Assembly: GCA_903952205.1 (NCBI GenBank)
Contig: CAJBEZ010000070.1
Span: 1-47,796 of the forward strand
DNA length: 47,796 nucleotides
Direction of reading: 5' to 3'
DNA from: an uncultured Desulfomonile sp.
GTDB taxonomy: Bacteria; Desulfobacterota; Desulfomonilia; Desulfomonilales; Desulfomonilaceae
Position numbers and translations under genes: made by a program. The notes below the pieces were generated by a model. The model made no database searches and was not told where the DNA came from. It saw nothing but the letters and a program-made list of their open reading frames with translations. This document shows, piece by piece, positions 43,174-43,619 of the stretch; the stretch's first letter is position 1; each line of letters begins with the position of its first letter.

Positions 43174-43380
43174 TCATTCGTCACACACGATGCAGTCAAC
43201 TACTGCCTCGCCACGCTGTCTCAAGCAGTCAGATCTAGTCGTCTTGATACATTGTGGCTTTTTCTTGACTCAGGAACACGATTTGATACAGCAGTCAACT
43301 TCGTCGTCCAGAGAAATGACATCTACTGGGACCGCTAATGTTGAAAGCATGATGAGCAGTGTCAATAAAGCCTTCTTCAT
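43174..43380 (-). CDS. secreted cysteine-rich peptide with one in-frame UGA (candidate selenoprotein)
   Basis: The gene starts at the ATG at 43380 (AGGAAGAGG about 13 bases upstream). It encodes a signal peptide, KKALLTLLIMLSTLAVP followed by VDVISLDDEVD, then CCIKSCS, then UGA at codon 37 (43272-43270), then in the same frame 31 more codons with four Cys, ending ...DCIVCDE and UGA at 43176-43174. Total 67 residues plus the UGA position, with seven Cys around it. The Cys-rich reading continuing in frame after the UGA suggests the codon is read through, as selenocysteine or otherwise; a nonsense mutation in a former Cys codon (TGT/TGC to TGA) is the alternative. I do not recognise the family. 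Confidence 0.55.
43210..43258 (-). promoter_or_regulatory. stem structure downstream of the in-frame UGA (possible SECIS-like element)
   Basis: On the minus strand, 14 bases after the UGA begins GCCAC (43258-43254), which pairs with GTGGC (43214-43210). Inside it TCAAG (43247-43243) pairs with CTTGA (43225-43221), extended by GT/AC on the outer side, leaving a 17-base loop. Bacterial SECIS elements lie in this place, but their apical loops are usually smaller, so the fit is only partial. Confidence 0.3.
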
Positions 43381-43421
43381 TATCACTTTAAAACCTCTTC
43401 CTAAATAAATTCTAAAAACCA

Positions 43422-43450
43422 ATTTTAGCATAGTCCTGGGGGAAAATTAA
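43422..43450 (-). promoter_or_regulatory. extended -10 promoter of the Cys-rich peptide
   Basis: On the minus strand TTAATT (43450-43445) and TAAAAT (43427-43422) are 17 bases apart, and TGC directly precedes the -10, giving an extended -10 element. Transcription would start near 43415, some 35 bases before the ATG. The -35 is weak. Confidence 0.42.
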
Positions 43451-43544: not shown

Positions 43545-43619
43545 GGCGGCTTAGCCAAGTGGTAAGGCGACGGTCTGCAAAACCGTTATTCGGCGGTTCA
43601 AATCCGCCAGCCGCCTCCA
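43545..43619 (+). tRNA. tRNA-Cys (GCA)
   Basis: The 75-base sequence folds as a complete tRNA: acceptor stem GGCGGCT pairing with AGCCGCC, D arm around TAGCCAAGTGGTAAGGC, anticodon stem-loop ACGGTCTGCAAAACCGT with anticodon GCA, and T arm GGCGGTTCAAATCCGCC. The discriminator base is U, the identity base for tRNA-Cys, and CCA is encoded. It is next to, and on the opposite strand from, the Cys-rich peptide gene. Confidence 0.96.

Follow-up and report, generated by a model that had tools for sequence, protein, structure and literature searches.

Described bacterial selenoproteins (PMC13188914) share with the gene reported here a conserved in-frame UGA, homologues with Cys in its place, the machinery for selenocysteine (Sec) insertion, a hairpin just downstream of the UGA, and a CxU-type motif. 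The present protein differs from them in being apparently exported, about 45 residues long when mature, and rich in Cys. Three named families, namely Dual CXXC motif small protein OS_HP3 (NF041197), CYCXC OS_HP4 (PF13798), and SaoC (NF040734), are likewise small or Cys-motif selenoproteins by name; their motifs are given as RxU, UxxC, and CU (PMC13188914), and the present protein matches no Pfam or NCBIfam model. The consensus for the bacterial Sec insertion element (bSECIS; PMC13188914, Fig. 2 legend) comprises a distance of 16-37 nt from the UGA to the apical loop, a minimum free energy of -7.5 kcal/mol or lower, and an apical loop of 3-9 nt with a G in its first two positions.

The window, that is, the whole stretch of 47,796 nt of Desulfomonile sp. 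DNA that was analyzed, contains a short minus-strand open reading frame (ORF) with a single in-frame UGA (Table 1). This ORF very likely (approximately 0.92) represents a genuine gene whose product is a small, exported selenoprotein with Sec at codon 37, from a family present in no library searched; the incorporation of selenium, the export, and the role of the product are inferred, and no selenium, protein, or expression data support them. The product reads MKKALLTLLIMLSTLAVPVDVISLDDEVDCCIKSCSUVKKKPQCIKTTRSDCLRQRGEAVVDCIVCDE (minus strand, 43380 to 43177, followed by UGA), starting with an ATG at 43380-43378. Codons 30, 31, and 35 upstream of the UGA and codons 44, 52, 63, and 66 downstream of it encode Cys, and 31 sense codons separate the codon-37 UGA from the terminal UGA. 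The coordinates, the UGA at codon 37, the Cys counts, the 31 downstream codons, and the second UGA had all been reported in an earlier note made from the sequence alone, and all of them held.

Table 1. Features of the candidate selenoprotein gene and of related loci.
Feature	Position	Strand	Basis
Candidate selenoprotein ORF, 68 residues, Sec at 37, terminal UGA included	43174..43380	-	Sequence and homologues
In-frame UGA, codon 37, very likely read as selenocysteine	43270..43272	-	TGA in 12, TGC in 2 of 14 long-form genes
Terminal UGA stop codon	43174..43176	-	No conserved sequence past it
Cys35-Ser36-Sec37 (CxU) motif	43270..43278	-	CxU in 11, SGUC in 1 (G015), CxC in 2 of 14 long forms
Putative signal peptide, residues 1-23, cleavage after VIS inferred	43312..43380	-	Sequence reading; VxS in 7/7 genus genomes
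SECIS-like 49-nt RNA hairpin, +15 to +63 from U of UGA	43210..43258	-	Covariation, folding, recoding
RBS-like AGGAAGAGG	43394..43402	-	Sequence; 13 nt before ATG
Extended -10-like element TGCTAAAAT	43422..43430	-	By eye; similar element in 5/8 aligned rows, window included
tRNA-Cys(GCA), divergent neighbor, outside the gene	43545..43619	+	Rfam match
Pump-linked short forms	L010 (own genome G000:C28:50624-50818), L083, L086-L089, L091, L092, L145, L146, L154, L159		

The other sequence features named in the earlier note fared less evenly. Its signal peptide was agreed by eye only (MKK, a hydrophobic stretch, and V-x-S), with no predictor behind it; the cleavage site was placed by the -3/-1 rule. 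Its ribosome binding site corresponds to the RBS-like AGGAAGAGG, and a GTG at 43384-43386, two codons upstream of the ATG, offers an alternative start at a better spacing (7 nt) from that element. Its promoter held only in part: a sigma-70 scan returned no sites and did not recover the extended -10-like element, which was recognized by eye, in the form TGNTANAAT, in 5/8 aligned rows.

Relatives were sought in 99 related genomes and then by a profile search of 18 genomes of the bacterial family, in which every first-look candidate was scored. The long form, as we call genes of this type, was found in 14 of the 18, comprising all seven genomes of the genus (that of the window included) and G009, G010, G012, G013, G014, G015, and G017. 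It was absent from G007, G008, G011, and G016, three of which are 81-83% complete, while G011 is listed as 100% complete. The codon aligned with codon 37 was TGA in 12 of the 14 long forms and TGC in the remaining two (G010 and G017, of one genus), where its context reads CCIRPC[ST]CLP; TAA or TAG occurred in none of the 14. In an alignment of 13 long-form rows (G004 left out), Cys30, Cys31, Cys44, Cys52, Gly57, Val60, Asp62, Cys63, and Cys66 were invariant, and a Cys either next to the Sec position or two residues before it was kept in 14/14 long forms. The G015 gene (L024/L063) carries SGUC instead of CxU, with the Cys partner moved from Sec-2 to Sec+1. Because the UGA is either kept or replaced by a Cys codon in the relatives, Sec is very probably inserted at codon 37.

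The distribution of the long form is narrow. Its profile gave seven matches in 395 genomes of the phylum (at most 15 candidates scored per genome), five within the family and two weak ones outside it (G060, E 0.002; G252, E 0.006), and viral contigs yielded no relatives. When 12 long and five short forms (the latter being six-Cys paralogues described below) were placed in a protein tree, the short forms grouped together, as did the two Cys forms, whereas the long forms were unresolved; the direction of the change between Sec and Cys is therefore undetermined.

The simplest rival reading is that the UGA is an ordinary stop, ending a secreted peptide of 36 residues with three Cys, and that the Cys-rich frame beyond it is a chance occurrence or a dead remnant. 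In its favor, UGA means stop in this code, and open frames past such stops are common in the window: 131 ORFs of at least 30 residues start with ATG and end with TGA, and in 29/131 the frame continues for 29 or more codons beyond the TGA. Four of these 29 have at least four Cys past the TGA, and one (presumably the candidate gene) also has at least three before it. Owing to these chance counts, the pattern in a single sequence is uncommon and not decisive, so the claim in the earlier note that the Cys enrichment is hard to explain by chance held only partly (1/131). Its further argument from an even number of eight thiol-type positions is weak (the short paralogues have six Cys).

The comparative data are decisive, and they make an ordinary stop highly improbable. 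The 29 codons past the UGA are constrained, with a pooled pN/pS of 0.181 across eight genomes (0.070 for the 11 codons ahead of it), and their variable columns are distributed as 12, 7, and 21 over the three codon positions. Beyond the terminal stop, in 60 nt read at a constant offset without realignment, these counts even out at 20, 20, and 19. The nearest relative (G005) is too similar to the window gene to be informative, with only two synonymous and three other changes (ratio 0.39). Furthermore, the post-UGA frame is open in 12/12 UGA genes, whereas both other forward frames contain stops in 11 of them and one of the two does in G009. The TGC codon in two relatives, the lack of TAA or TAG among the 14, and a CxxC end held in common with paralogues that have no UGA also speak against the ordinary stop.

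The genome of the window also encodes the machinery for Sec insertion. The selA (595.2 bits), selB (398.6 bits), and selD (364.2 bits) genes each scored above the cut-off, the selD gene containing one in-frame TGA itself, and a tRNA-Sec (70.3 bits, cut-off 47) was typed as Sec with the anticodon UCA by ARAGORN; the search for tRNA-Sec was confined to this genome. Across the family genomes, selA and selB exceeded their cut-offs in 18/18 and selD in 16/18. In both Cys-form genomes, G010 and G017, a second selB-like gene also exceeded the cut-off for selB (G010:C1:3562952-3564838 and G017:C38:821-2707).

These results strongly support the selenoprotein interpretation of the earlier note by homologues, constraint, and machinery. 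Two of the checks it had proposed, on the aligned codon in homologues (TGA in 12 or TGC in two, with conserved sequence on both sides) and on selA, selB, selD, and tRNA-Sec in the same genome, both came out in favor. The outcomes it had named as refuting were absent: no long form was followed by unrelated downstream sequence, the machinery was present, and the UGA was not a private mutation.

An RNA hairpin beginning 11 nt past the UGA covaries in the UGA genes and is missing from the Cys forms. It is built of a 5-bp closing stem, GCC[AG]C/G[UC]GG[CU], and a longer imperfect arm. In an alignment of 11 rows, 86.7% of the cells assigned to pairs could pair, as against 33.3-47.9% for slid versions of the structure; of 500 shuffles, none reached this paired fraction and three reached the covariation score. 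The number of pairs changed on both sides was reached by 21 of the 500 shuffles and the number of cells so changed by 12; the number of further pair types was a weak control, as 415/500 reached it. The closing pairs were, in order, GC 8/GU 2/AU 1 (columns 18-66, +15/+63), CG 10/UG 1, CG 11, GC 7/AU 4 (columns 21-63, +18/+60), and CG 10/other 1. Since two of the five join Pro/Gly positions that pair by necessity, the informative pairs are those between third positions, Lys3-Gly3 (+15/+63) and Pro3-Arg3 (+18/+60). Both can form in 12/12 UGA genes and in 0/2 Cys genes, provided that G009 and the Cys genes are shifted to allow for their extra codon; G009 itself has its minimum-energy fold in another register.

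It may be objected that the +15 to +63 frame was chosen post hoc, from an alignment reaching to +75. RNAalifold found no structure to +45 (200/200 codon-column shuffles as low) and little to +60 (11-33/200, or 21-42/200 if begun at -15), whereas to +75 none of 200 shuffles was as low in all four row sets. Since the frame was found after looking, synonymous recoding and the contrast with the Cys genes are the fairer tests, and the alignments that suggested the hairpin included neither G009 nor the two Cys genes. For the 12 UGA genes, the minimum free energy of the 49 nt lay between -14.4 and -22.8 kcal/mol, and for the two Cys genes it was -4.5 and -4.1 kcal/mol. Among 1000 synonymous recodings per gene, 1 to 43 were as stable as the native sequence in the 12 UGA genes, as against 668 and 594 in the two Cys genes. 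The support is uneven in its details: the full closing stem alone arises in 141/1000 recodings of the window gene, only 7/15 named pairs and 4/5 closing pairs are formed in G009 and G013 (the former folding in a shifted register), and the dinucleotide-shuffle z values for six of the 14 sequences were -2.19, -2.83, -3.87, -3.02, -3.43, and -0.19, the last (L020) being not unusual.

The hairpin departs from the textbook bSECIS. When folding was limited to the stretch between the UGA and about +52, nothing convincing emerged (z +1.5 for the window gene, -2.8 at best, in L059), and a hand-written scan for bSECIS-like elements picked out candidates in 8/14 genes, with none in the window gene. The predicted fold of the window gene meets the consensus in spacing (30 nt) and energy (-14.6 kcal/mol) and fails it in the apical loop, which is 12 nt long, begins with AC, and lacks an early G; the predicted folds in G006 and G015 have short apical loops starting with G. 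The selD genes of the same family have a short inner hairpin whose distance from the UGA is similar, with some 11 nt of spacer (15 loci, by eye), and the hairpin of the present family is longer than this inner hairpin in the same genomes. A spacing of 11 nt is also that of E. coli fdhF. The identification of the hairpin as a SelB binding element is an inference, without binding data.

A second rival reading accepts that the UGA is read through and attributes this to near-cognate insertion of Trp or Cys, or to a suppressor tRNA with a UCA anticodon, either of which would give a standard residue. Suppressor-type tRNAs that read UGA occur in some bacteria, the hairpin departs from the bSECIS consensus, and the tRNA list of the genome is incomplete, with 150/232 candidates scored and tRNA-Ile(GAT) missing. 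However, 45 of the 46 tRNA hits were typed and tRNA-Sec alone had the anticodon UCA, the untyped hit being a 63-nt match on C34 that ARAGORN did not call. The Cys genes of the same family also lack the hairpin, as expected if it serves Sec insertion. Readthrough to a standard residue is thus very improbable.

Under the preferred reading of a selenoprotein with Sec at codon 37, translation would start at 43380, or at the GTG at 43386, and the hairpin would recruit SelB with Sec-tRNA(Sec) to the UGA, where Sec would be inserted. The second UGA would terminate translation, and the signal peptide would direct the export of the product. The mature product is predicted to be a mini-protein of approximately 45 residues, whose six-Cys core (CC, C, C, CxxC) is also that of the shorter paralogues and whose inserted loop bears the CxU redox pair. 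A variant compatible with this reading is a gene with two products, in which translation would be divided between a 36-residue product, made by termination, and a 68-residue one, made by Sec insertion, and this division would serve to sense the selenium or redox state. Termination does compete with Sec insertion in bacteria, where recoding reaches 30-40% in vivo (PMC4513850), and the truncated form would keep the signal peptide and CC-x3-C. On the other hand, two relatives with a plain Cys codon make the long form only, and there are no data on a function of the short product; a dual-product gene is unlikely.

As far as the searched catalogues and libraries show, the selenoprotein family is likely to be new, with an atypical SECIS and an unusual type of protein. 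The earlier note had likewise known of no matching family. The window protein matched no family in Pfam or NCBIfam at E ≤ 1 and none in PHROGs, and had no sequence match in the PDB at E ≤ 1. No entry in Table 1 of PMC13188914 (May 2026; 119 selenoprotein families or subfamilies) was recognized as being of this kind. Literature searches brought up no mention of the family, although a survey of selenoproteins in groundwater metagenome-assembled genomes (Deng et al., 2026, cited in PMC13188914) was not covered and might contain it. The AlphaFold model, examined for a thioredoxin-like fold among others, was modest (pLDDT 76.2, pTM 0.49) and gave no Foldseek match at E ≤ 0.001. A fold match to ADAM17, a single row at Z 2.2 among 24 re-aligned chains, was rejected as not meaningful.

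The long-form gene is flanked by a pair of genes for a metallo-beta-lactamase-fold protein and an enoyl-CoA hydratase, both assigned by Pfam, and on the other side by what we take, from reading its sequence, to be an adenosylcobalamin-type ribonucleotide reductase. Within the reach of the contigs, both the genus and G012 show this arrangement. Of the five further genera with the long form, three were compared (L061-L063), and these have no neighbor in common with the genus or G012; G010 and G017, which belong to one genus, have an upstream protein in common, by eye. The long-form gene probably stands alone, with no partner conserved across genera.

The short six-Cys paralogues have a similar signal-peptide pattern and a CC...C...C...GxVVxxCxxC core and lack both the CxU/CxC insertion and the UGA. 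Long and short forms matched in profile-profile comparison (probability 99.0, E 6.4e-18), and the long form meets the pattern of the short-paralogue superfamily by eye (CC-C-C-CxxC core, G-x-VV, and export signal). The short forms L010 and L027 reached no Pfam or NCBIfam cut-off, and the short-form profile gave eight matches in the 395 phylum genomes, five in the family and three weak ones inside long ORFs elsewhere. There were 20 distinct short-form loci after L158, L073, and L085 had been dropped for failing the motif and L082 had been set aside as a repeat of L026. In 12 of the 20, the gene follows one for an RND pump in the same orientation (11 family genomes, including that of the window; Table 1). 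Three pump fragments were scanned, and each scored highest in NCBIfam with TIGR00914 (CusA/CzcA heavy-metal efflux), below the full-length cut-off because the fragments are partial. The whole pump in the genome of the window matched ACR_tran at 1048 bits and is preceded by a CusB/HlyD-type adaptor. None of the long forms examined lies behind a CusA/CzcA pump.

The position of many short paralogues behind CusA/CzcA pumps suggests, as the most likely role, periplasmic thiol/selenol redox chemistry or the binding of soft metals or metalloids, an inference that rests on the neighbors of distant paralogues. In the periplasm the scaffold would handle thiols or soft metals, and the long form would add a selenol pair. 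The selenoprotein reading is also compatible with a mini-protein that reduces peroxides or acts as a thiol-disulfide oxidoreductase instead of binding metal. CxU or CxC is kept in 13/14 long forms, the exception, G015, having an adjacent Cys (UC), and most uncharacterized selenoproteins are probably redox proteins (PMC13188914, section 7). However, the short paralogues accompany metal pumps in 12/20 loci and no known redox family matched in sequence, and we lean slightly against a purely redox role. A bolder reading, which remains no more than a possibility, is that a Sec-bearing loop was added to a soft-metal-binding six-Cys scaffold, which the paralogues link to heavy-metal efflux pumps, and that the product serves as a periplasmic selenol trap or redox partner; its extended hairpin would represent a distinct SECIS class, read by the same SelB alongside the short canonical one, with the second UGA as the true stop.

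With this gene, the known selenoproteins gain a family that is unusual in being very small, apparently exported, and rich in Cys. Annotation pipelines may be expected to struggle with such genes, because the ORF has only 36 codons to the UGA and the hairpin is off the consensus in its apical loop. The Cys relatives without the hairpin provide a natural contrast for studying hairpin function. As a recoded UGA and a terminating UGA lie 31 codons apart in one short ORF, the gene is also a compact test case for discrimination by SelB and for the use of Sec outside the cytoplasm.

At the window locus, Rfam reported the tRNA and a sub-threshold match on its antisense strand. This tRNA-Cys(GCA) lies approximately 165 nt upstream of the Cys-rich gene on the opposite strand, and a translated trace of it was also seen beside the relative in L056; its position next to a Cys-rich gene is probably a coincidence.
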